Shown: positions 27,762-46,868 of the stretch, one piece after another
Position numbering within the stretch: position 1 is the stretch's first letter
How the letters are laid out: each line of letters begins with the position of its first letter
DNA from: an uncultured Burkholderiales bacterium
GTDB taxonomy: Bacteria; Pseudomonadota; Gammaproteobacteria; Burkholderiales; Burkholderiaceae_C
NCBI GenBank assembly: GCA_903880855.1
Contig: CAIRQX010000114.1
Span: forward strand, 1-64,000
Direction of reading: 5' to 3'
DNA: 64,000 nucleotides
Made by a program: the position numbers and the translations under genes
The notes under the pieces: generated by a model
Seen by the model: the letters and a program-made list of their open reading frames with translations, nothing else
The model's database searches: none
Told to the model about the DNA's origin: nothing

Positions 27762-28897
27762 ACACTATCTCTATGCCTAAATATTTAGCTTACTATTTCC
27801 GTTTTTTATTCCTCGCTCTTGTTTTTTGTGTTGTTGGATGTACAAATTTAGCTACTTCTCAGCGTGTAGAAGGCGCAAAACTTGGAGCAGGTCCTGCTTA
27901 CGCAGTCGACCCCTATTGGCCTAAGCCATTGCCAAATCAGTGGTTGCTAGGCCAAGTTGCTGGAATAGCCACGGATAAGAACCAAAACATTTGGGTGATT
28001 CACCGTCCCAATACATTGACGGAAGACGAGCGCGGTGCGACTTTGTCTCCAGCACGCTCCCGTTGCTGTGTTGCTGCACCGCCTGTCTTGCAATTCGATC
28101 CAGCAGGTAACTTATTGCAATCTTGGGGTGGTCCAGATGCTGGGTATGAGTGGCCTAAAAATGAACACGGCATTTATGCCGATCCAGAAGGAAATATTTG
28201 GTTAGGTGGCAATGATGCCAAAGACCATATGATTTTGAAATTCACAGCCCAAGGCAAATTCTTGATGCAGATTGGGTATGCCGGACAGAGTGAAGGAAGT
28301 TTGTCGCAAAAGCAATTGGGACGCCCAGCACATATGGAAATGGATGTTGCTGCGCGGGAGTTGTATGTGGCAGATGGTTACCAAAACAGGCGCGTGGTGG
28401 TATTTAACTCTGACACTGGGGCATTCAAGCGTATGTGGGGCGCTTATGGACAACCGCCTAAAGATGGGCAATTTCCTTCTTACGACCCGCAGGCCAATTA
28501 TTTTGGTAACCCAGTCCACTGCGTTCGTTTGATGCGTGACGGCACAGTGCTGGTCTGTGACCGCATGAACAACCGAATTCAGGTATTCACGAAGGAAGGT
28601 CAATTTATTCGACAAATGGTGTTTGAACCCAACACACGAGGTTCCGGTTCAGTTTGGGACTTGGTGGTGAGTGAAGACCCAAGCCAAACATTCATGCTGA
28701 TTGCCGATGGCACCAATAACGAAGTTCGAATCGCCAAGCGTGACTCGGGTGAAGTGGTTGGAACTTTTGGTAGATCAGGCAGGCAAGCTGGCGACTTCCA
28801 TTGGGTGCACAACATTGCAATCGACAACCAAGGCAATCTTTACACCGCCGAAGTCGACACGGGTAAGCGTGCACAAAAATTTATGAAAGTGCGCTAG
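27758..28897 (+). CDS. NHL-repeat lipoprotein (peptidyl-alpha-hydroxyglycine lyase-like)
   Basis: Lipobox VVGC; repeated D..GNIWLGG, VADGYQNRRVVVF, VCDRMNNRIQVFTKEGQF blades. Confidence 0.85.
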   Translation: MNTISMPKYLAYYFRFLFLALVFCVVGCTNLATSQRVEGAKLGAGPAYAVDPYWPKPLPNQWLLGQVAGIATDKNQNIWVIHRPNTLTEDERGATLSPARSRCCVAAPPVLQFDPAGNLLQSWGGPDAGYEWPKNEHGIYADPEGNIWLGGNDAKDHMILKFTAQGKFLMQIGYAGQSEGSLSQKQLGRPAHMEMDVAARELYVADGYQNRRVVVFNSDTGAFKRMWGAYGQPPKDGQFPSYDPQANYFGNPVHCVRLMRDGTVLVCDRMNNRIQVFTKEGQFIRQMVFEPNTRGSGSVWDLVVSEDPSQTFMLIADGTNNEVRIAKRDSGEVVGTFGRSGRQAGDFHWVHNIAIDNQGNLYTAEVDTGKRAQKFMKVR

Positions 28898-29852
28898 CGC
28901 TGGAATTTTTTTGAATGGCTTGTTGAAATGCAATAACTGTCGTCTCAGGTGACTCAGACTCAGTGATTGCTCTGACAACTGCTACGGAACCCACGCCGGT
29001 TTTTACGACAGACGGCAATCGGTCAAGGTCGATTCCACCGATGCCCACCAGCGGATAGCCCTGCATAAGTTGCGCATAGCGTTCTAACCTACCAAGTCCT
29101 TGCGGCGCAGTCACCATTCGCTTGAGGGTGGTTGGAAACACTGCGCCTAAAGCTATGTAACTGGGTGAATGGCGATCGGCCAACAGCATTTCTTTATATC
29201 CATGGGTGCTTAAACCTAAGCGAAGCCCAGCAGATCGAATCTTGTCTAAAGGCGCCTCTTGCATGTCTTCTTGACCAAGGTGAACGCCGTAAGCACCGGC
29301 AGCTATGGCTTCTTCCCAATGGTCATTGATGAAGAGCAAAGTGTTTGTACCTTGCGTGGCTGCAACGGATGCAGCTATTTCTTTCGCAACTGCAGCTTTA
29401 TCGTCTGATTTAAAACGTAACTGAACGGTGGGAACGCCCGCTTTTGCCATACGTGCCACCCATTGTGCGTTTGGTAATACTGCGTAAAGACCCAGTTGTT
29501 TTGGACAAGGTGCAAATGCATTGAGTCTAGGAAAAGGCGATATGCCAAAGTCACTGGGTTGCGATGGCCATTGCTCAATATCCAATGCACCCATACGCTC
29601 ACTTTGTATTTGCCAAGCCTGCATGATGCATTGGGCATCATGCGCTACAAAACCCAGCATACGGCACCCAACAAGTACGCCTTGCATCTCCTTTGAAAGT
29701 GAAGCGATTTGAGGAGTGGCTGTGGAATCCCCCAAACATTGTGAATAGCTAAGTGCTTCACCCACTTTTAAATGGGCGTAGTGCTCTGCGATGCCTTGAG
29801 CGATAGCTGACGCAGAATTAGAAGTAGGTGTGGTGTTCATGAGTGATGCCAA
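28881..29852 (-). CDS. thiE: Thiamine phosphate synthase ThiE with N-terminal extension
   Basis: VPTVQLRFKSDD, LFINDHWEEAIAAGAYGVHLGQEDM, LGLSTHGYKEM, YIALGAVFPTTLK, LVGIGGIDLDRLP. Confidence 0.93.
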   Translation of the reverse strand: MASLMNTTPTSNSASAIAQGIAEHYAHLKVGEALSYSQCLGDSTATPQIASLSKEMQGVLVGCRMLGFVAHDAQCIMQAWQIQSERMGALDIEQWPSQPSDFGISPFPRLNAFAPCPKQLGLYAVLPNAQWVARMAKAGVPTVQLRFKSDDKAAVAKEIAASVAATQGTNTLLFINDHWEEAIAAGAYGVHLGQEDMQEAPLDKIRSAGLRLGLSTHGYKEMLLADRHSPSYIALGAVFPTTLKRMVTAPQGLGRLERYAQLMQGYPLVGIGGIDLDRLPSVVKTGVGSVAVVRAITESESPETTVIAFQQAIQKNSSASALS

Positions 29853-30649
29853 AAAGGTGTCCCTAAAACAGGTGTGCTGGGTTGAGCCGTTTCTTGCGCT
29901 TGCATAGCACCTGCCAAGAATGCGTTGTGCCCCGCTTGAACAGCATCAGCGAATGCGCCTGCCATAGCGACAGGGTCTTGTGCCAGAGCTACAGCGGTGT
30001 TGAGCAATACAGCGTCGTAACCCCACTCCATGACTTGGCATGCGTGTGAAGGTAGGCCTAAGCCTGCATCTACGATCAGCGGCACTTGCAGGCGCTCTCT
30101 TAGTGTGCGCAATGCCGTGGGATTGACGGGTCCTTTGCCGGTGCCTATAGGTGCTGCCCATGGCATGACCGCCTGACAACCGACATCAACCAATCGCTGG
30201 CACAACACCAAATCTTCGGTGCAGTAGGGTAGTACTTTGAAGCCGGCTTTGATGAGTCGACTGGCAGCTTCAGGCAAATTTAAGGTGTCGGGTTGCAAGG
30301 TGTAATCGTCACCAATCAACTCGAGTTTTATCCAATCGGTGTGAAAGACTTCACGTGCCATTTCAGCTGTCGTAATCGCCTCTTGCATGCTATGACAACC
30401 AGCGGTGTTCGGAAGTACGGGCACCTTGGCTTCGCGAAGCAAGTTCCAGAAACTTTGCGACGCTTCGCCACCAGCGCCTGTTTGCCGACGCAACGAAGCT
30501 GTCAACATCGCAGGTTGTGCACGCTCGATGGCAGCTAGCAAAACACTGGGAGAAGGGTAGCGCGAGGTACCCAAAAGTAGACGGCTTGTAAAAGTCTCGC
30601 CATACAGCGTGAGAGGTGAGGAAGTAGACATTGGTAATTCCATGGACAT
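29837..30649 (-). CDS. thiG: Thiazole synthase ThiG
   Basis: SRLLLGTSRYPSPSVLLAAI, NTAGCHSMQEAITTAEMARE, IVDAGLGLPSHACQVMEWGYDAVLLNTAVA. Confidence 0.97.
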   Translation of the reverse strand: MSMELPMSTSSPLTLYGETFTSRLLLGTSRYPSPSVLLAAIERAQPAMLTASLRRQTGAGGEASQSFWNLLREAKVPVLPNTAGCHSMQEAITTAEMAREVFHTDWIKLELIGDDYTLQPDTLNLPEAASRLIKAGFKVLPYCTEDLVLCQRLVDVGCQAVMPWAAPIGTGKGPVNPTALRTLRERLQVPLIVDAGLGLPSHACQVMEWGYDAVLLNTAVALAQDPVAMAGAFADAVQAGHNAFLAGAMQAQETAQPSTPVLGTPFWHHS

Positions 30650-30870
30650 TAACCGCCCGTGATAGGCGCGATGAGTTCTATCTGGTCGTTCGCTTGCAGC
30701 ACATGGCTTGCGTATTGCGTTTTAGGAACAAACTGCAGATTGACCGCAGCAGCAAATGGTGGCGCAATACCCATACTTTTCACAGCGTCAGCCAATGTGG
30801 CATCGGCTGGAAGTTCGTGAGGCGCTTGGTTGATGAGCACCTGGATAGTGGCTTTATCAGACATGTTCAA
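30649..30870 (-). CDS. thiS: Sulfur carrier protein ThiS
   Basis: 73 aa, C-terminal ITGG; between thiO and thiG. Confidence 0.93.
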   Translation of the reverse strand: MNMSDKATIQVLINQAPHELPADATLADAVKSMGIAPPFAAAVNLQFVPKTQYASHVLQANDQIELIAPITGG

Positions 30871-31942
30871 ACTTCAAAGCAAATTGATCGGCGAGTGTTG
30901 TCTTATGTGACTGCACCCACTCCAAAACAATATCAAGCATGGCCGGTGCAATTAAAAAACCATGCCGGTACAAACCATTGATTTGTAATGTGCGGGCTCC
31001 GAGTTGGCGAATGGCGGGTAAGTTATTTGTCAAAGTGGGTCTTGCTTGGGTACTAATTTCTAAAATGCGAGCCTCAGCAAACCCGCTATGTACGGTGTAG
31101 GCAGCACTGAGTAGCTCCAAAGTCGAACGAACACTCGCAGGGGACAGGTCTTCTGTTTCTATTTCAGTTGCACCTATAACAAAGACGTGGTCTGGTTTAG
31201 GTGCTATGTAGATGGGGTAGCGCGGATGAATCAAGCGCGTTGGTCTTTGTAATGTGACTTCAGGTGCATGCAAGCGAATCACTTCTCCACGAACACCACG
31301 CAGCGCCTTCCAATCTTGTCTCGCACCGAGGCCTCGGCAATCAAATACCCAGTCGGGTTGACCTGTTGTTCCTAGCGAGAAATCTTCGGGTGCTTTGGCG
31401 GTATTCCAATGGAGGCCAACCTTTTGCGTTTGAAGGCTGTCTAGCAATGCAGCCAGCAGTTCGCGGTTGTCTAGTTGTCCTTCGTCAGGCAAGTAGAGGG
31501 CATTTTGAAAACGGTCTTGCAATGCGGGTTCCATCGCCGAGAGCTTTGCATTGTCAAGAGATTGCAATGTAGGCAAGCTCGGCAATTGGGTTTGGGTTCG
31601 TGCAAGTAACTGCGCGAATCGTTGGGCTTCAGGGGCATCTTGGCGATGCCAAACAATCAGGGTACCGTTTTGTTGAAAGAAAACAGCTTGCTGTAATTCT
31701 TTCAATAACTCAGGCCAACGCTTGAGCGCATGTTGGCCCATCTGCACGACTGGCAATTCAGTAATCGCGGACTCTGCAAGCGGCGCCAACATGGCAGCAG
31801 CCACACGGGCCGCAGCTCCTTGCGCATCGGGTCCTTGCGCTTCATACACATCGACACGATGCCCCAAGCGAGCCAAGCTATGGGCGAGCAAACGTCCCAT
31901 CAAACCTGCACCTAAAACAACGCTGTGGAGTTGGGTAGTCAT
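30857..31942 (-). CDS. thiO: FAD-dependent glycine oxidase ThiO
   Basis: VVLGAGLMGRLLAHSLARLGHRVDVYEA; ARPTLTNNLPAIRQLG; INGLYRHGFLIAPAM. Confidence 0.93.
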   Translation of the reverse strand: MTTQLHSVVLGAGLMGRLLAHSLARLGHRVDVYEAQGPDAQGAAARVAAAMLAPLAESAITELPVVQMGQHALKRWPELLKELQQAVFFQQNGTLIVWHRQDAPEAQRFAQLLARTQTQLPSLPTLQSLDNAKLSAMEPALQDRFQNALYLPDEGQLDNRELLAALLDSLQTQKVGLHWNTAKAPEDFSLGTTGQPDWVFDCRGLGARQDWKALRGVRGEVIRLHAPEVTLQRPTRLIHPRYPIYIAPKPDHVFVIGATEIETEDLSPASVRSTLELLSAAYTVHSGFAEARILEISTQARPTLTNNLPAIRQLGARTLQINGLYRHGFLIAPAMLDIVLEWVQSHKTTLADQFALKFEHV

Positions 31943-31995
31943 CTATCTTGCAAGCCACATAAAGAGTTAGCTAAGCATTGCGCATAATTACGTCT

Positions 31996-32841
31996 ATGAC
32001 TAGCCAACAACATTCTTCTAAGCACTACGCCCGTGTATTGACCATTGCAGGTTCGGACAGCGGCGGCGGAGCGGGTATCCAAGCCGACTTGAAAACCTTT
32101 GCTGCCTTGGGCTGCTACGGCATGACTGCCATCACGGCTTTGACTGCGCAAAACACTAAGGGTGTGCAAGGTATTCACGGCATTCCAGCTGAATTCTTGA
32201 AAGCACAAATTCAATCTGTCATGGATGACATTGGCGTTGACGCCCTCAAGATTGGCATGTTGCATGCCCCTGAAATTGTCGATGTGGTGGCATGGGCTAT
32301 TGACCATTACCAATTGAAAAACGTGGTGTTGGATCCTGTGATGGTGGCTACCAGCGGAGACCGCTTGATTGCCAGTGAAACGGTGCAAGTCTTGGTACGC
32401 GAGTTGTTTCCCCGCGCGAGCCTCATCACCCCCAATTTGGATGAAGCGGTTTTGCTGTTGGGCCGTGAGATTTCGGACGCTAGTGTGTTGGAGACGGCAG
32501 GACGTGATTTGCTGGCGATGGGCGCGCGCGCCGTATTGCTCAAAGGTGGGCATTTGCCCGGCGACGATGTGATGGATTTGCTGGTGCAACCCAATACGCC
32601 GTCTGAGCGTTTGTCTTCGCGTCGTATTCAAAGTTGCAATGTGCATGGCACTGGGTGCACGTTGTCGTCTGCGATTGCAGCCTATTTGGCTTTGGGATTG
32701 GGTTTGTCTGAGGCCGTGCATTGCGCGCGCCAATTTATTGTGCAAGCCATTGCGCACGGTGCAGACATCACCACGGGACAAGGTCATGGACCCTTGAACC
32801 ATGGGTTTGCACCAGTGCCTATGCATGCTCTGCATGGTTAA
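31996..32841 (+). CDS. thiD: Hydroxymethylpyrimidine (phosphate) kinase ThiD
   Basis: VLTIAGSDSGGGAGIQADLKTFAALGCYGMTAITALTAQNT; VLDPVMVATSGDRLI; VHGTGCTLSSAIAA. Confidence 0.97.
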   Translation: MTSQQHSSKHYARVLTIAGSDSGGGAGIQADLKTFAALGCYGMTAITALTAQNTKGVQGIHGIPAEFLKAQIQSVMDDIGVDALKIGMLHAPEIVDVVAWAIDHYQLKNVVLDPVMVATSGDRLIASETVQVLVRELFPRASLITPNLDEAVLLLGREISDASVLETAGRDLLAMGARAVLLKGGHLPGDDVMDLLVQPNTPSERLSSRRIQSCNVHGTGCTLSSAIAAYLALGLGLSEAVHCARQFIVQAIAHGADITTGQGHGPLNHGFAPVPMHALHG

Positions 32842-33614
32842 GCCATCACCAATCCACCGTCGACAACCAAGACTTGTCCGGTCATAAATTGGCTCTCGTC
32901 TGACGCTAAAAACAAAACAGGGCCCGCCACATCTGCTGGAGTGGCTAACCTTCCTAATGGGGTCTTAGCGATCAACATATCTTTGACAGATTCTTTGGTG
33001 TGCGCGCTAGAAGCGGTAGGACTGACCAAGCCCGGTGCAAGACAGTTCACGCGAATGCCACAGGGGCCTAGCTCTGTGGCTAAATTTCTACTAAAGCCCA
33101 CTAAAGCAGACTTGGCCGTGGAGTAGTCGTGATAAGGAATGCTGGGTCGGTAGACCAAGTCACTCACCATATTGATGATGCTGCCTTTTGCGCGTTGACG
33201 CATATTCGGAATCACAGACTGACAAACGTTGTAGCTAGCCTGAACTGCACCATCAAATTGGGTTTGGTAGTCAGCCCATGGCGTTTCCCAAAAGCGTTTG
33301 CGGTTTTCAGGGTCAAACGCATAGGGGCTAAATGCGTTGTTCACCAGTACATCGATACGCCCAACTTCATGCATGGCTTGGTCCACCATATCTTGCACAG
33401 CCTTAGGATCACGCACATCGGCCTTCAAGGCAAGGGCAGTGCCGCCTAGCTTTTCACAATCGCTCACCACTCCATTTGCTGCATTGGCATTCGCAAGATA
33501 GTTCACCAATACACAAGCACCCTCAGCCGCAAATGCTTTGGCAATAGCAGCACCGATGCCACGGCTAGCACCCGTTACTAAAACAGTTTGATTATGAAAA
33601 CGCTTGAACGACAT
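32838..33614 (-). CDS. SDR family (FabG-like) oxidoreductase, last gene of the TPP-riboswitch unit
   Basis: VLVTGASRGIGAAIAKAFAAEG, NNAFSPY, YSTAKSALVGFSRNLATELG; start at MSFKRFHNQ 2 nt after the preceding stop. Confidence 0.92.
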   Translation of the reverse strand: MSFKRFHNQTVLVTGASRGIGAAIAKAFAAEGACVLVNYLANANAANGVVSDCEKLGGTALALKADVRDPKAVQDMVDQAMHEVGRIDVLVNNAFSPYAFDPENRKRFWETPWADYQTQFDGAVQASYNVCQSVIPNMRQRAKGSIINMVSDLVYRPSIPYHDYSTAKSALVGFSRNLATELGPCGIRVNCLAPGLVSPTASSAHTKESVKDMLIAKTPLGRLATPADVAGPVLFLASDESQFMTGQVLVVDGGLVMA

Positions 33615-33615
33615 C

Positions 33616-34656
33616 TTATTTTTTGCCTGGTAACAAGTCTTGGCTAATGACATCTGCAACTTTGATGTCGCGTTGAATCAAACCAAATGCTTTGTAGGCA
33701 TTGGCACCCTTTTGAATGACGTTCATATCAAAAGCACCTAAGCCTTTTTGTTGGGTCACGGGTGAAACGCTGGTGGCATTGCGTAACTTAATTACTTCTA
33801 AATTAGCGGCTTCGTTTTGGCCATCAAGCGCAAATTTCACAGCCAACTTGGCTGCTTCTTGGGGTGAGCGCATCATCCATTCAGCGCTGTCTCGGTAGGC
33901 TTGTAAAAACCGCTTCAATACGTCTTTCTTTTGTTGGTAAGTTTCTTCTCGCACAACAAAGAAATCGCTGGAGATATTCACATAATTTTTAACTTCCATC
34001 ACGTTCACATCACCCAGACCTTTTTGCTTTCCAACCAGAAGACCTGTATCGGTAGCGGCTGTGGCATCTACTTGGCCTTGCATGAGGGGTAAAAAGTTCA
34101 ATAACCCAGTCACAACGATGGTGACGTCGGCCTCGGTCAAACCTGCTTGGTGCAGCAAAATTTGCAGGTTTTGCCTTGTCCCACTGGCCAAGCTATAAAC
34201 GCCAATGCGCTTGCCTTTGAGGTCCGATGGTTTGGTGATGTTTTGAGATTTAAGCGATACCAAATTAAAAATATTTTGTGGGTATATATCGTAAATAGCC
34301 CTTAATTTCTCACCTTTGTCGATAGCTGTAAAAAAAGATGCGGGGTCCGTAAACGCTACATCGGCTTGGCCACTCAGTAAATTGCGTATCGCGTCTGCAC
34401 CACCTGCGCCAGGAATAATCGCCATCTCAATACCTCTGGATTTGAAGAAGCCTTTGTCTTCTTCGACCAATAAATTGGTAATTTCAGTGATGGGTTTGCC
34501 CCAACTGGCGATGACAACTTTGTCGAGCTTTGCAGGTGTTTGGGCATAGCCTGTCGCTGTAATCAGTAAACCCAAAACACAGGTGATGGTGCCAGCGATA
34601 GTTAATCGGAAACTGTGAAACGCGCAAGACATGTGGAAACTTTCTGGAAGAATCAA
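33616..34656 (-). CDS. ABC transporter substrate-binding protein, NMT1/THI5-like (ThiY-type)
   Basis: TNLLVEEDKGFFKSRGIEMAIIPGAGGADAIRNLLSGQADVAFTDPASFF; DLKGKRIGVYSLASGT. Confidence 0.9.
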   Translation of the reverse strand: MILPESFHMSCAFHSFRLTIAGTITCVLGLLITATGYAQTPAKLDKVVIASWGKPITEITNLLVEEDKGFFKSRGIEMAIIPGAGGADAIRNLLSGQADVAFTDPASFFTAIDKGEKLRAIYDIYPQNIFNLVSLKSQNITKPSDLKGKRIGVYSLASGTRQNLQILLHQAGLTEADVTIVVTGLLNFLPLMQGQVDATAATDTGLLVGKQKGLGDVNVMEVKNYVNISSDFFVVREETYQQKKDVLKRFLQAYRDSAEWMMRSPQEAAKLAVKFALDGQNEAANLEVIKLRNATSVSPVTQQKGLGAFDMNVIQKGANAYKAFGLIQRDIKVADVISQDLLPGKK

Positions 34657-34659
34657 AAA

Positions 34660-35403
34660 TTAAGATTGCAAAAATCGACGTTCAAATGTTTGAAACATCC
34701 AATAACTTGAGATGCCGAGGAAGGTGATGACTACTAAGACAGCAAACATCAAAGGCGTGTCCATAGATCCTTGCGCAGCGATGATCAATGCGCCAAGTCC
34801 TTTGCTGGACCCAATGAACTCACCCACAACAGCACCTACCCATGCCAGCACCAAAGCGACCCGAAAGCCCGCCAATATATTAGGCATACCCGAGGGAATT
34901 TTTAAGCGCCACAGCGTTTGCCACCTATTTGCACGCAGCATTTTGAAAAGTTCTAATTTTTGTGAATCCACTTGTTGCATGCTGGTCACTGTGTTTTCAA
35001 GCAATGGAAAAAAACAAATTAACGCAGTCATGACAACGGTGGGTAGTACGCCAAAGCCAAACCAGACAATGAACAAAGGAGCAAGTGCCAATTTGGGTAT
35101 GACTTGGCTCAAGACAACATAGGGCATGAGGAGAGAACGTAAATGCTTCGATTCACCTAAAACAATGCCGCCAACGCACCCCATTAACCCACCCAGCAGA
35201 ATCCCCCAAAAAACTTCTACCAGTGTTTGCCAAATATGCGGCCACAGGTAACCATTTACTAAGCCCTTCCATAAAACATCTGCAATTCGCGAAGGGGCTG
35301 GCATGACCAACTCTGAGGTGCCAAGTGTGCGTACCAAAACTTCCCAAGTTGTTAAGAAAACTACACCTACCAAGAATGTCCAGAAATAAGACTTTGATTT
35401 CAT
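34660..35403 (-). CDS. ABC transporter permease (ThiX/SsuC type)
   Basis: LPTVVMTALICFFPLLENTVTSMQQVD; PSGMPNILAGFRVALVLAWVGAVVGEFIGSSKGLG. Confidence 0.93.
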   Translation of the reverse strand: MKSKSYFWTFLVGVVFLTTWEVLVRTLGTSELVMPAPSRIADVLWKGLVNGYLWPHIWQTLVEVFWGILLGGLMGCVGGIVLGESKHLRSLLMPYVVLSQVIPKLALAPLFIVWFGFGVLPTVVMTALICFFPLLENTVTSMQQVDSQKLELFKMLRANRWQTLWRLKIPSGMPNILAGFRVALVLAWVGAVVGEFIGSSKGLGALIIAAQGSMDTPLMFAVLVVITFLGISSYWMFQTFERRFLQS

Positions 35404-36185
35404 GCAACCACCTCCATGGCATGACGCAGTTTTGCACTGAAATGATTGAACTCTGGGCTATGGCGCATGGAGTTTTGACGCGGTTGCGGCAGGTCGATTG
35501 GGAGTGTGTGGTGAATTTTTCCTTGCGCCATCACAGAGACCTGGTTACCCAGGTAGACCGCTTCGCCAATATCGTGCGTCACAAACAAGATGGAGGTTTT
35601 GTGTTCTGCACAAATTCCCATCAGGTCATGTTGTAGTTCTTCTCGGGTTATCGCATCTAAAGAGGCAAAAGGTTCGTCCATGAACAAGATATGTGGACTG
35701 GTGATCAGCGCGCGCGCAATTGCAACGCGGCTTTGTTGTCCGCCTGATAGTTCAGTTGGTTTGCCATGGAATTTATGTGCAAGCCCCATGCGTTGCAGCA
35801 ATTCTTTGGCCTTTTGGAGGTCTGAGGCTTCAATTCTTCTATGCAATGCAATTGGCAGTAACACATTGTCTAAAACGTCTAACCACTCAAGAAGCGTTGG
35901 ACGTTGGAATACAAACCCCATATCGCTTTGCGGCGTAATTAACGGTTGGTTATTCCACACCACTTCGCCCTGCTGGGCGGAAAGTAGGCCAGCTGCTAAT
36001 TTGAGCAAGCTGGTTTTTCCGCAACCACTGCGACCTAGCAGGCAGTGGAATTCGCCCGGCGCTAAATCTAGGTTGATGTTTTGCAGTGTTTCAACACCCT
36101 CTAAGTAGGAGAACGACACATTTCGCAGACGCAAAAGATGCTGCGCCTTGGATTCAATTGGAGTCATGCTTGAATCAGAGTTCAT
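35400..36185 (-). CDS. ABC transporter ATP-binding protein (ThiZ/SsuB type)
   Basis: Walker A LLGRSGCGKTSLL; ELSGGQQSRVAIARAL; Walker B HILFMDEPFASLD. Confidence 0.95.
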   Translation of the reverse strand: MNSDSSMTPIESKAQHLLRLRNVSFSYLEGVETLQNINLDLAPGEFHCLLGRSGCGKTSLLKLAAGLLSAQQGEVVWNNQPLITPQSDMGFVFQRPTLLEWLDVLDNVLLPIALHRRIEASDLQKAKELLQRMGLAHKFHGKPTELSGGQQSRVAIARALITSPHILFMDEPFASLDAITREELQHDLMGICAEHKTSILFVTHDIGEAVYLGNQVSVMAQGKIHHTLPIDLPQPRQNSMRHSPEFNHFSAKLRHAMEVVA

Positions 36186-37635
36186 AGTGGGTTAACTGAT
36201 TCGCTGCAACTTCAGTCGATGTTTCAATGTCGACCATGTTTACCAAATCAGCCAGGCTGAATCGTCCATCGTGGTGCCAACCAGCAGCAGGAGAGGTCAT
36301 TTCGCCAATCGCACAAATGCGTGTGACACCAGCAAGCGCTAGTGCTTCACCTAATTGAAGCAATTTTTCTGGATCTGTTGCCAGGCCTGTTGTTTGTAAA
36401 TACGGGCGTTGGTCTTTCAACAAAGGGATTACGTCTAGCAAGGAATCAACTGCAACTACGGTGACGCATCGGTTGAGCGGACTGGGGTTGAGCGACAGAG
36501 GTGCATCGCTATAAACCACCACAAACGCATCCTGCTTATCTCCCAGCACCTGAATTCCAGAGTTTTGCAGCATGGCAAATTCATGCGATTCACGCCAACT
36601 GGCGATGTGTGAAGCCTCTTCTAGTGACAAAGAGGCCCTTGGGTATTTGTGTGCCAACGCGGCTAATTCGCTGGCAAGTGACTGAGCAAATTCTTGAGGA
36701 CTCAACTGAGCGCCACGTTCTACATAGAACATTTGTGGCGAGTAACAGCCTTGCTGTTCATACCGAGCGATATCTAACGCGGCTTGAGAAGCCACACGTT
36801 TTGCACGCACAACAGAAAGCGCCGATGTAGACACCATGCCAAAACTCAGTTTGTGACCGTGCGGTAAGAAGCGCGTGGTCACGGGTACATGGCTTTGAAT
36901 TGCCGACAGTGCGCTGTTTCCGCCGTAGGCGAGCACGATGTCTGATTGTTGGAATAAATAGCTGGCAATATCGACGTCTTCGGTCGGCCACCAAATAATG
37001 GACAGACAGTCTGCAAGTCGAGGTTCTATATCTGCCAATACTTTGGCAAAAATAGATGCGCAGATGGGCTCAGTACTCGACACCTTACCTACCGTTCCGG
37101 CTTTCACCAATAGGCTCGAGATCAAACTCCACAAAGGTAAACCAGGAACGTTTCCAGCCCAAATATGCGTGACGAGGTCTGCACCTACCGCCTTGGTCCA
37201 TCCTCCGGTAATGCGTGGCTGAAATTCATCCAGCATTTTGGGATTGCTGAAGTCCTCGGCGATAAACCGATGCAATTGCAGTGCACGAAATGTTTGCAAA
37301 TATTCGCTGAAGTTATGGCGCAACATGGTTGCGTCCATGCCCGTGGCAATGGGTAATATTGTGTCTATGCGTTTTCTATCTTCATGGTTGACGTCAAGCA
37401 ATCTGAGAATAGCTACATCGATAGCACGCACGATGTCTGACACGGCCATGGTTTTGATATGCGTTTGGACGGCACTCTTAATGTGTTGCGACAAAGCCAG
37501 TATTTGTGCAGGCGTCAAGATGGGGACTTTCACCTCCAATCGTGTATCGCCTGCTCCATATGTCAGCATGTGCCACGCAAGGTCTTTGTGCGCAATGCTT
37601 GGAACGTAGCCGGCTGTGAACTGCAAAACGGTCAT
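36175..37635 (-). CDS. LuxC-like acyl-CoA reductase family protein
   Basis: WAGNVPGLPLWSLISSLLVKAGTVGKVSSTEPICASIFAKVL; DIVLAYGGNSALSAI; 486 aa; adjacent to LuxE-like gene. Confidence 0.87.
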   Translation of the reverse strand: MTVLQFTAGYVPSIAHKDLAWHMLTYGAGDTRLEVKVPILTPAQILALSQHIKSAVQTHIKTMAVSDIVRAIDVAILRLLDVNHEDRKRIDTILPIATGMDATMLRHNFSEYLQTFRALQLHRFIAEDFSNPKMLDEFQPRITGGWTKAVGADLVTHIWAGNVPGLPLWSLISSLLVKAGTVGKVSSTEPICASIFAKVLADIEPRLADCLSIIWWPTEDVDIASYLFQQSDIVLAYGGNSALSAIQSHVPVTTRFLPHGHKLSFGMVSTSALSVVRAKRVASQAALDIARYEQQGCYSPQMFYVERGAQLSPQEFAQSLASELAALAHKYPRASLSLEEASHIASWRESHEFAMLQNSGIQVLGDKQDAFVVVYSDAPLSLNPSPLNRCVTVVAVDSLLDVIPLLKDQRPYLQTTGLATDPEKLLQLGEALALAGVTRICAIGEMTSPAAGWHHDGRFSLADLVNMVDIETSTEVAANQLTHYEL

Positions 37636-38726
37636 ACGCGCGCCGCCTGCAGAAAATCTTCAACTGCCAAAGAGCATCCTTTTGCTTGTGCGCCCTGTGC
37701 GCGGCCCAGCAAAATAAAACCGTCGTCCGTGGCGATACCAACGTCCTCTGTCAAAAGTGTGGTGACAGAGTTGTAGTTGGCCAGGTCCGTGTGTACCAAG
37801 ATGCCACGTTCGCCCTTTGGCATGTCTTGGCCGCTTATGGGGTCGATGACTCTGGTGCGTATCCAGTGTGGTCCACGCTTGACGGAAGTTGTAGTGCTGT
37901 TACCTGCGTCATACAACTGGGTACTCAACTCAGTCATGCCGTACATATTGAAGCATTGCGAACGCGGCACGCCAAATGTGTTGGAGAGTTGGCTGTAGAA
38001 GCTATCCATTTCAATCTCACGCGATTGGCCTTTGAATCCGCCCGTATCAAACAACCAACTTGATGCGGGCAGTTTGAAATACAGCCCCGAAGCGTTCAGA
38101 GCGTCCATGGCGTGGACCATGCTGTAGCTAGCGCCAAGGAGTGCGATAGGCTCATGATTTTTTTCAGCCTGTTGCAGAGCTTGCGCGAGTCCTTCTATGT
38201 CTAAGCCGCTAGGTCCTATGAAATATTGGCTGTTGGGGGTACCAAAATGCGCGAGGGCTAATTGGAGGTAATGCGCCAACGATGAGTTAGGCATCATGTC
38301 TACCGTTGGGAAAAGAATTCCAATGCGTATTTTTGATTTTTGAGACATTAACTGCCGTTCAAAATTTAAACGCATGGATGCGTCGTAGACCCTGAGCGAC
38401 GGGTGGTAATGACGGCCTTTGACATCACCACGGGTCGTTCCGCTGGTCATGAAGACGCGGCCACATTGGCTAGTAGGTGTGCATGTCAGATCTAAGTCTT
38501 TGAATGCATTGATAGGCACGGCCGGGATGTCGTGCCAATGCGTGACAGTGCGCGGGGTTTTACCGCGCATTTGGCAAAACCGTTGGAAAGGTAAATTAAA
38601 TTGCGCTTGGTGTTTAAAAAGACGCAAAGCCATGGCATTGAAGGCGGCATCGTCTGATGCGTTCATCTGCATGAAAGCCATTACTTCGTCTTCGATCACT
38701 GACGCGTTGTTTGCCATGTTGTCCAT
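37632..38726 (-). CDS. LuxE-like acyl-protein synthetase family protein
   Basis: VFMTSGTTRGDVKGRHYHPSLRVYDASM; CFNMYGMTELSTQLYD; GERGILVHTDLANYNSVTTLLTEDVG. Confidence 0.87.
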   Translation of the reverse strand: MDNMANNASVIEDEVMAFMQMNASDDAAFNAMALRLFKHQAQFNLPFQRFCQMRGKTPRTVTHWHDIPAVPINAFKDLDLTCTPTSQCGRVFMTSGTTRGDVKGRHYHPSLRVYDASMRLNFERQLMSQKSKIRIGILFPTVDMMPNSSLAHYLQLALAHFGTPNSQYFIGPSGLDIEGLAQALQQAEKNHEPIALLGASYSMVHAMDALNASGLYFKLPASSWLFDTGGFKGQSREIEMDSFYSQLSNTFGVPRSQCFNMYGMTELSTQLYDAGNSTTTSVKRGPHWIRTRVIDPISGQDMPKGERGILVHTDLANYNSVTTLLTEDVGIATDDGFILLGRAQGAQAKGCSLAVEDFLQAARV

Positions 38727-38790
38727 AACTGGAGCAGGGGGCTAACGCAGATTCGGAGAATGTGGGCGAATACCCAGTTCCGGCACTTGT

Positions 38791-38880
38791 AACTAGCTTC
38801 CCTGCGCGAGGATTACCTCAATCAGGTTCAAAGGGACTTTCTCAGCCAGTGCCACCTTGTTGACACCAACACCCCTAGCG
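38791..38880 (-). ncRNA. TPP (THI-box) riboswitch
   Basis: On minus: CTAGGGGTGTTGGTG...GGCTGAGAAAGTCCCTTTGAACCTGATTGAGGTAATCCTCGCGCAGGGAAGCTAG, with the conserved CTGAGA and CCTTTGAACCTGAT segments. Confidence 0.95.
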
Positions 38881-38955
38881 GATGCACCCAAACTTTGAGC
38901 GCTGGTGCATTCTAAAGTATCTGCCCTCGTTGGAAATTCGTTAATCCTTTTGGAT

Positions 38956-45695: not shown

Positions 45696-46868
45696 TTATG
45701 TGTGAATTTTCAAATACGACTGCATGCGGGCATGGGCGAGTTCTGGATTTATAAATAGGCCTGCTTTGTCAGCTAGGACAAAGAGATCGCATAAATGTTG
45801 CACAGAGCGTGCACTTTGTTGTCCACCCACCATTGAAAAATGTGATTGGTGTCCGTTGAGCCATGCCATGAATACCACGCCAGTCTTATAAAAACGGGTG
45901 GGTGCTTGAAAGATATGCCGCGAAAGCGCCAAAGTAGGTTCTAGAGTTTGAATAAATTTCTCAGAATTACCAAGAGCAAGTTGCTGTAGCGCATTGCTAG
46001 CCGTCGGAGCGATGGCATCAAAAATTCCAAGTAAGGCGTCACTTTGCTGGTGGACTGTTTCTGCACCAATGCCATCTCCAGCAATCAACTCGGGGTAATT
46101 GAAGTCATCACCCGTGTACATCCTCACGCCTGCCGGTAGACGTCTACGCATATTGATTTCACGGTGTTTGTCTAAAAGTGAAACTTTGATACCGTCTACT
46201 TTGTTTTTATAGGCGTGAATGATGTCGAGCGCAGTTTGTGTGGCCTTGTCTAAGTCTTGGTATCCCCAGTAGCCGTTCAATGCCGGGTCAAACATATCGC
46301 CCAACCAATGCAAAATGACGGGCTGCTTGGCTTGCGAAATGATGCGTGCATAGACTTTTTCATAGTCATCTGGACCTTTCGCAACTTTGACCAATGCGCG
46401 GCTTGCCATGATGATGAGCTTTCCCCCTAAAGCCTCTATCGCTTCCATTTGGTGTTCATAGGCGCGGATAACTTCGTCTAGTGATTTAACTTGGTCTGGC
46501 TCGAGATGGTCGGTGCCGCAACCTGACGCGACTAGCGCATTAGGAAATTCTTTGGCCGTATCTAAGGTGTGTTGAATTAACTCTAGCGAAGTAGGCCAAT
46601 CCAAACCCATGCCGCGTTGCGCTGTATCCATGGCCTCTGCCACACCAAAACCCAACGACCATAAGTAACGGCGATAGGCTAGGGTTGCTTCCCAATCTAA
46701 GGGTGTGGAAATCCAAGGGTCTGCCGCGGCAAGGGGGTTGGACACTACGTGGGCAGCTGAATAAACAATTCGGTTGAAACTAGGAGCCTCTTTGGGTATA
46801 GCTGTTGCTTTCGCCAACAATGTATAGCTATACGGATTGCCTAGGTTGTTGATTAATTGAATATCCAT
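45696..46868 (-). CDS. Dihydrodipicolinate synthase-like, DUF993 family
   Basis: FNRIVYSAAHVVSNPLAAADPW, RRYLWSLGFGVAEAMDTAQRGMGLDWP, QPVILHWLGDMFDPALNGYWG. Confidence 0.85.
   Translation of the reverse strand: MDIQLINNLGNPYSYTLLAKATAIPKEAPSFNRIVYSAAHVVSNPLAAADPWISTPLDWEATLAYRRYLWSLGFGVAEAMDTAQRGMGLDWPTSLELIQHTLDTAKEFPNALVASGCGTDHLEPDQVKSLDEVIRAYEHQMEAIEALGGKLIIMASRALVKVAKGPDDYEKVYARIISQAKQPVILHWLGDMFDPALNGYWGYQDLDKATQTALDIIHAYKNKVDGIKVSLLDKHREINMRRRLPAGVRMYTGDDFNYPELIAGDGIGAETVHQQSDALLGIFDAIAPTASNALQQLALGNSEKFIQTLEPTLALSRHIFQAPTRFYKTGVVFMAWLNGHQSHFSMVGGQQSARSVQHLCDLFVLADKAGLFINPELAHARMQSYLKIHT

Follow-up and report, generated by a model that had tools for sequence, protein, structure and literature searches.

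A TPP riboswitch-controlled luxE-luxC operon with a proposed role in salvage of the pyrimidine half of thiamine

The luxE- and luxC-like genes described here come from an uncultured Burkholderiales bacterium and belong to a six-gene operon that is preceded by a TPP riboswitch and has thiamine biosynthesis genes as neighbours. We consider it quite likely that this operon is a riboswitch-controlled system for salvage of the pyrimidine half of thiamine, most likely by way of 4-amino-2-methylpyrimidine-5-carboxylate or a close relative. It is also probable that in Pseudomonadota and Bacillota LuxE, LuxC and a short-chain dehydrogenase/reductase (SDR) reduce HMP-carboxylate to the pyrimidine HMP for thiamine salvage, which would represent a second physiological role for the LuxC/LuxE pair and would give pyrimidine auxotrophs a new nutrient.

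Results

A LuxE/LuxC pair distinct from the bioluminescence enzymes

The window analyzed is a 64,000-nucleotide stretch of contig CAIRQX010000114.1. ORF and Pfam analyses of the window confirm what an earlier note on this DNA had read from the sequence, namely a LuxE/LuxC pair encoded by two genes that overlap by 4 bp:

37632-38726, minus strand: luxE-like adenylating acyl-protein synthetase, 364 aa, assigned by PF04443, 7xc6_E and conservation; motifs TSGTT and YGMTE
36175-37635, minus strand: luxC-like acyl-thioester reductase, 486 aa, assigned by PF05893, by 7xc6_A in both sequence and fold, and by trees

The Pfam scores, 68.7 bits for LuxE against PF04443 (cut-off 24.9) and 323.6 bits for LuxC against PF05893 (cut-off 21), place the two proteins in the LuxE and LuxC superfamilies. 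When both were searched against PDB sequences, nothing scored above chance except the two chains of 7xc6, the LuxC-LuxE complex from Photobacterium phosphoreum. The cysteines expected to carry the acyl group are retained in both proteins. The catalytic cysteine of LuxC, C297, aligns to the 7xc6 cysteine and is present in 90 of 90 ungapped rows of the subfamily alignment, and the C-terminal acyl cysteine of LuxE, C351, also aligns to its 7xc6 counterpart and is present in all 89 subfamily rows. A predicted model of LuxC (mean pLDDT 80.9) has 7xc6 as its top fold match, with a TM of 0.70 and 19% identity over the model, and confirms the LuxC fold at the level of prediction; its low-confidence segments, residues 130-150 and 451-467, cover the conserved C-terminal motif.

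A role in bioluminescence, which the earlier note had considered unlikely, can be rejected on both protein scores and operon content. Against the NCBI bioluminescence equivalogs NF052251 and NF052244, LuxC reaches 129.8 bits where 750 are required and LuxE 57.4 where 550 are required. The operon consists of the lux pair, ABC transporter genes and an SDR gene, and luxA, luxB and luxD were not found in it. A Pfam scan of the 32 larger proteins of the window, several ORFs, mostly evident transporters, lying outside this set, showed no luciferase and no LuxD family; the absence of such genes stated in the note thus holds for the proteins scanned. The same note had suggested a distinct subfamily, and this is borne out by the trees: the thiamine-type LuxC proteins form one clade, supported at 100/100 in one tree and at 100/99 in another, and the Photobacterium-type LuxC lies outside it.

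A six-gene operon headed by a TPP riboswitch

The genes of the operon are tightly packed, overlapping or abutting one another, in the order luxE, luxC, ABC ATPase, permease, THI5/ThiY-like binding protein and SDR. Upstream and downstream of the lux pair, the following features were annotated:

38782-38886, minus strand: TPP riboswitch (THI element) in the leader ahead of luxE, matching Rfam RF00059 at 57.8 bits (gathering threshold 54.3, E 2.5e-9)
35400-36185, minus strand: ABC transporter ATPase of SsuB/TauB type (PF00005), overlapping luxC by 11 bp
34660-35403, minus strand: ABC transporter permease of SsuC/TauC type (PF00528)
33616-34656, minus strand: periplasmic substrate-binding protein, NMT1/THI5/ThiY-like (PF09084), with a signal-peptide-like N terminus
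32838-33659, minus strand: SDR (PF13561/PF00106), near NF006393 (287, cut-off 292)
31978-32841, plus strand: thiD, HMP/HMP-P kinase (TIGR00097, 323.9 bits, over cut-off), convergent to the lux operon
30857-31942, minus strand: thiO, glycine oxidase (TIGR02352, 243 bits, slightly below the cut-off of 250.8)
30649-30870, minus strand: thiS, sulfur carrier with a GG end (TIGR01683, over cut-off)
29837-30649, minus strand: thiG, thiazole synthase (PF05690, 332 bits)
28881-29852, minus strand: thiE, thiamine phosphate synthase (TIGR00693, 149 bits, over cut-off; PF02581)

The riboswitch is located 56 nt upstream of luxE; searches of the window and of the genome found no other TPP riboswitch. It would act by repressing the operon; single-strand folding of the leader in search of an expression platform gave nothing above shuffled sequences. 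The binding protein matches PF09084 at 171 bits and is weakly ThiY-like, its PDB matches including the FAMP-binding protein 3ix1 (33 bits, weak) and yeast THI5/THI13. We also considered that it might be an HMP-P synthase of the THI5 type; this is unlikely, given its signal-peptide-like N terminus, the lack of a cysteine-rich motif and its absence from the Pantoea loci. In the SDR, judged by subfamily conservation, Y179 and K183 are invariant and N108 and S/T166 are kept.

Two further observations concern other proteins of the window. ThiE is extended at its N terminus by about 100 residues before the TMP synthase domain, and a DUF993 protein (45696-46868, 593 bits) has as neighbours a gene resembling sugar isomerases, an ABC transporter of the BMP type and a Gfo/Idh/MocA oxidoreductase.

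Thiamine genes of the genome and its genus

The assembly (2.8 Mb, a draft of 168 contigs) is estimated to be 100% complete with 2.94% contamination. Neither thiC nor genes for TenA or thiamine pyrophosphokinase (TPK) were found in the genome, absences that lean on this completeness estimate, and thiD, thiO, thiS, thiG, thiE and thiL were all found, ThiL being split across two contigs. As the thiazole branch and ThiL are present and ThiC, TenA and TPK are not, the only missing input for TPP synthesis is the pyrimidine HMP. Limnohabitans, to which the genus of this genome is closest in our LuxC trees, is reported to have no thiC and to need an external supply of pyrimidine (PMC12637900).

Within 37 genomes of the genus, luxC of the thiamine type (full or fragmentary) occurs in 10, a CytX-family permease in 16 and thiC in 3, and no two of these were found together in the same genome. 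The complete lack of overlap of luxC with cytX or thiC has a hypergeometric probability of 1.3e-4, a value that treats the genomes as independent despite their shared phylogeny; it becomes 0.003 when the set is restricted to genomes of at least 90% completeness. Wherever the contig of a genus luxC genome is long enough, the riboswitch lies immediately before luxE. At the same locus, genus-mates carry the arrangement riboswitch, CytX-family (putative HMP) permease, thiD and thiOSGE. We keep to the name CytX-family, since these genes score 219-251 bits against TIGR02358, under its curated cut-off of 309.85. In wider relatives (L051 and L044, some Limnohabitans), CytX-like genes and the lux module occur together.

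Taking into account that thiC accompanies the lux operon in 27 of the 33 carriers tested, we do not regard the operon as a mere stand-in for ThiC, and its interpretation as an obligate replacement was rejected. It is better seen as a salvage system that becomes essential once thiC is lost.

Distribution of the module beyond the genus

Outside the genus, named genomes yielded 80 loci when scanned. In nearly all of them the order luxE-luxC-ATPase-permease-SBP-SDR is maintained, at about 50-97% identity and often beside thiD, thiO, thiG or thiE. Riboswitches were searched for in the relatives with a covariance model built mainly from those of the genus, together with Rfam. Of the 73 related loci, 68 have a detected TPP riboswitch ahead of luxE or, in Ramlibacter, ahead of thiD-luxE, and these include loci of Azospirillum, Pantoea and Bacillaceae; none was detected at the four other testable loci (L036, L083, L090 and L093), and L030 offers too little sequence. 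The riboswitch accompanies all thiamine-type LuxC genes examined across the order and the phylum (L126, L127, L129-L132, L141 and L145; L128 through L161).

At 23 loci with other LuxC-like matches, five of which are probably not true LuxC, no TPP riboswitch was found within the approximately 1.5 kb of upstream sequence covered. Several LuxC-family matches (L133, L135-L138, L142, L143, L146, L147, L149 and L150) lie in frames of about 800-830 residues, possibly fusions to a second domain, with the LuxC part at the N terminus in one group and at the C terminus in the other; no TPP riboswitch is nearby. In two relatives lacking thiC, TPP riboswitches (L116, 10648-10773; L117, 1175-1316) are followed by ORFs, about 735 residues long, that resemble TonB-dependent receptors.

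The transporter varies more than the enzymes. In Pantoea and in G809 the riboswitch is followed by luxE-luxC-SDR alone, which argues that the three enzymes are the core and that the transporter is exchangeable. On small plasmids of Lactiplantibacillus plantarum and Levilactobacillus brevis and on a megaplasmid of Niallia taxi, an NCS2 nucleobase permease replaces the ABC genes, with one or two TPP riboswitches ahead of the NCS2 permease and luxE-luxC-SDR; in the Niallia taxi operon, ThiW, a thiazole transporter component, is encoded between riboswitch and permease.

Many copies of the thiamine-type lux genes are plasmid-borne. In the trees, Bacillota LuxC sequences nest among those of Pseudomonadota, a placement that suggests horizontal transfer of these genes. 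The Lactobacillus plasmids L167 and L168 (compare L169, Niallia taxi) carry a complete cassette of riboswitch, NCS2 permease, luxE, luxC and SDR, with identical protein accessions in two species, which indicates that the salvage cassette is mobile.

Discussion

Proposed pathway and alternatives

The earlier note had suggested that the substrate of the pair may differ from the tetradecanoyl chains of Vibrio-type LuxCE. The riboswitch ahead of luxE, the other four genes of the operon, the thiamine neighbours and the missing thiC all point to a substrate that is probably not a fatty acid, and they turn that suggestion into a specific proposal. Ligase, thioester reductase and SDR, acting one after the other, would convert an acid to an alcohol, the LuxCE part of this chemistry being established and the SDR part presumed. 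The alcohol used by ThiD is HMP, so that the acid is most simply 4-amino-2-methylpyrimidine-5-carboxylate, which is a thiamine metabolite in rat urine according to Neal and Pearson (1964), as cited in PMC7780320. That CytX and NCS2, both nucleobase-type permeases, are found at these loci also indicates a pyrimidine substrate.

In the proposed pathway, the oxidised pyrimidine, most likely this carboxylate, would enter the cell by way of the ABC transporter and its THI5/ThiY-like binding protein. LuxE would adenylate the carboxylate at the expense of ATP and take up the acyl group on Cys351; LuxC would receive it on Cys297 and reduce it with a nicotinamide cofactor to the pyrimidine aldehyde, which the SDR would convert to HMP. 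ThiD would then phosphorylate HMP, and ThiE would couple it to the thiazole. The identity of the substrate, the cofactor and the direction of the reactions are those that we infer.

Thiamine acetic acid and 4-methylthiazole-5-acetic acid are known oxidation products of thiamine, and the three enzymes might instead reduce one of these, yielding thiamine or HET, respectively. Control by a TPP riboswitch would likewise be called for, and ThiW in the Niallia taxi operon fits a thiazole-side substrate. With thiO, thiS and thiG, however, the present genome makes thiazole itself, and it has no detected TPK, so that thiamine or HET would not supply the missing HMP, and the alternative transporters, CytX and NCS2, are of nucleobase types; we regard such a substrate as quite unlikely. 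The same regulatory and genomic evidence would fit another pyrimidine-related acid (e.g., a 5-carboxymethyl or N-acyl compound), or an aldehyde feeding ThiC-independent pyrimidine synthesis, within the thiamine pathway but other than by reduction of HMP-carboxylate. The kinship of the binding protein with THI5, the yeast HMP-P synthase, agrees with this too. Such a role appears unlikely when set against the plain acid-to-alcohol logic of an ATP-dependent ligase, a thioester reductase and an SDR, the use of HMP by ThiD, the signal-peptide-like N terminus and missing cysteine-rich motif of the binding protein, and the occurrence of the three enzymes in Pantoea without it.

A fatty acid reductase producing fatty aldehydes, placed beside thiamine genes by accident, is what the fold and catalytic residues of LuxC/LuxE and the public automatic annotation of these genes ('acyl-CoA reductase', 'long-chain fatty acid-CoA ligase' and '3-oxoacyl-ACP reductase') would lead one to expect. 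Conservation of riboswitch and operon across two phyla, the separate LuxC clade and the low scores against the bioluminescence equivalogs make this highly improbable. Reduction of the pyrimidine carboxylate to HMP is the reading that we favour.

Comparison with known systems

With the fatty acid reductase LuxC-LuxE of Photobacterium and Vibrio (7xc6), the present pair shares families, fold, acyl cysteines and the logic of ligase plus thioester reductase. It differs in that no LuxA, LuxB or LuxD was found nearby, in its separate clade, in the TPP riboswitch, and in the presence of an ABC or NCS2 transporter and an SDR in the operon; an invariant W/H-rich C-terminal motif reads WHHDGRF here and GAHDGM in 7xc6. 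The Bacillus ThiXYZ-TenA/YlmB system salvages FAMP/AmMP. As proposed here for the lux operon, it combines ABC import of a breakdown product of the thiamine pyrimidine with TPP control and ends in HMP; instead of hydrolysing an amine or formamide, the LuxE-LuxC-SDR route would reduce a carboxylate, in a genome in which TenA was not found. The CytX (TIGR02358) loci of the genus-mates hold the same position between riboswitch and thiD with a single putative permease for ready-made HMP and without enzymes, unlike the lux operon. Carboxylic acid reductase (CAR), a single PPant-dependent protein, converts acids to aldehydes with ATP and a nicotinamide cofactor, as would LuxE and LuxC, but its reductase fold is unrelated.

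The protein families are known; their combination, regulation and proposed pathway appear to be new. A search of open-access full-text literature (subscription journals being outside its scope) for LuxC, LuxE, acyl-CoA reductase or acyl-protein synthetase together with thiamine or TPP riboswitch returned no relevant paper.

Implications

In fresh water and in the sea, many bacteria have no thiC and rely on pyrimidine from outside, the usable forms known being HMP, AmMP and FAMP (PMC10881298, PMC12637900). If the carboxylate can be reclaimed as well, a vitamer that has so far gone unmeasured would join the B1 cycle, and a nutrient would be identified for the abundant bacteria of the Limnohabitans type. 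LuxC and LuxE, today annotated as fatty acid enzymes, would acquire a second biological role; annotations would have to be corrected in Azospirillum, Pantoea, Variovorax, Polaromonas and lactobacilli, and the three enzymes would provide an ATP- and nicotinamide-driven route for the reduction of heteroaromatic acids.
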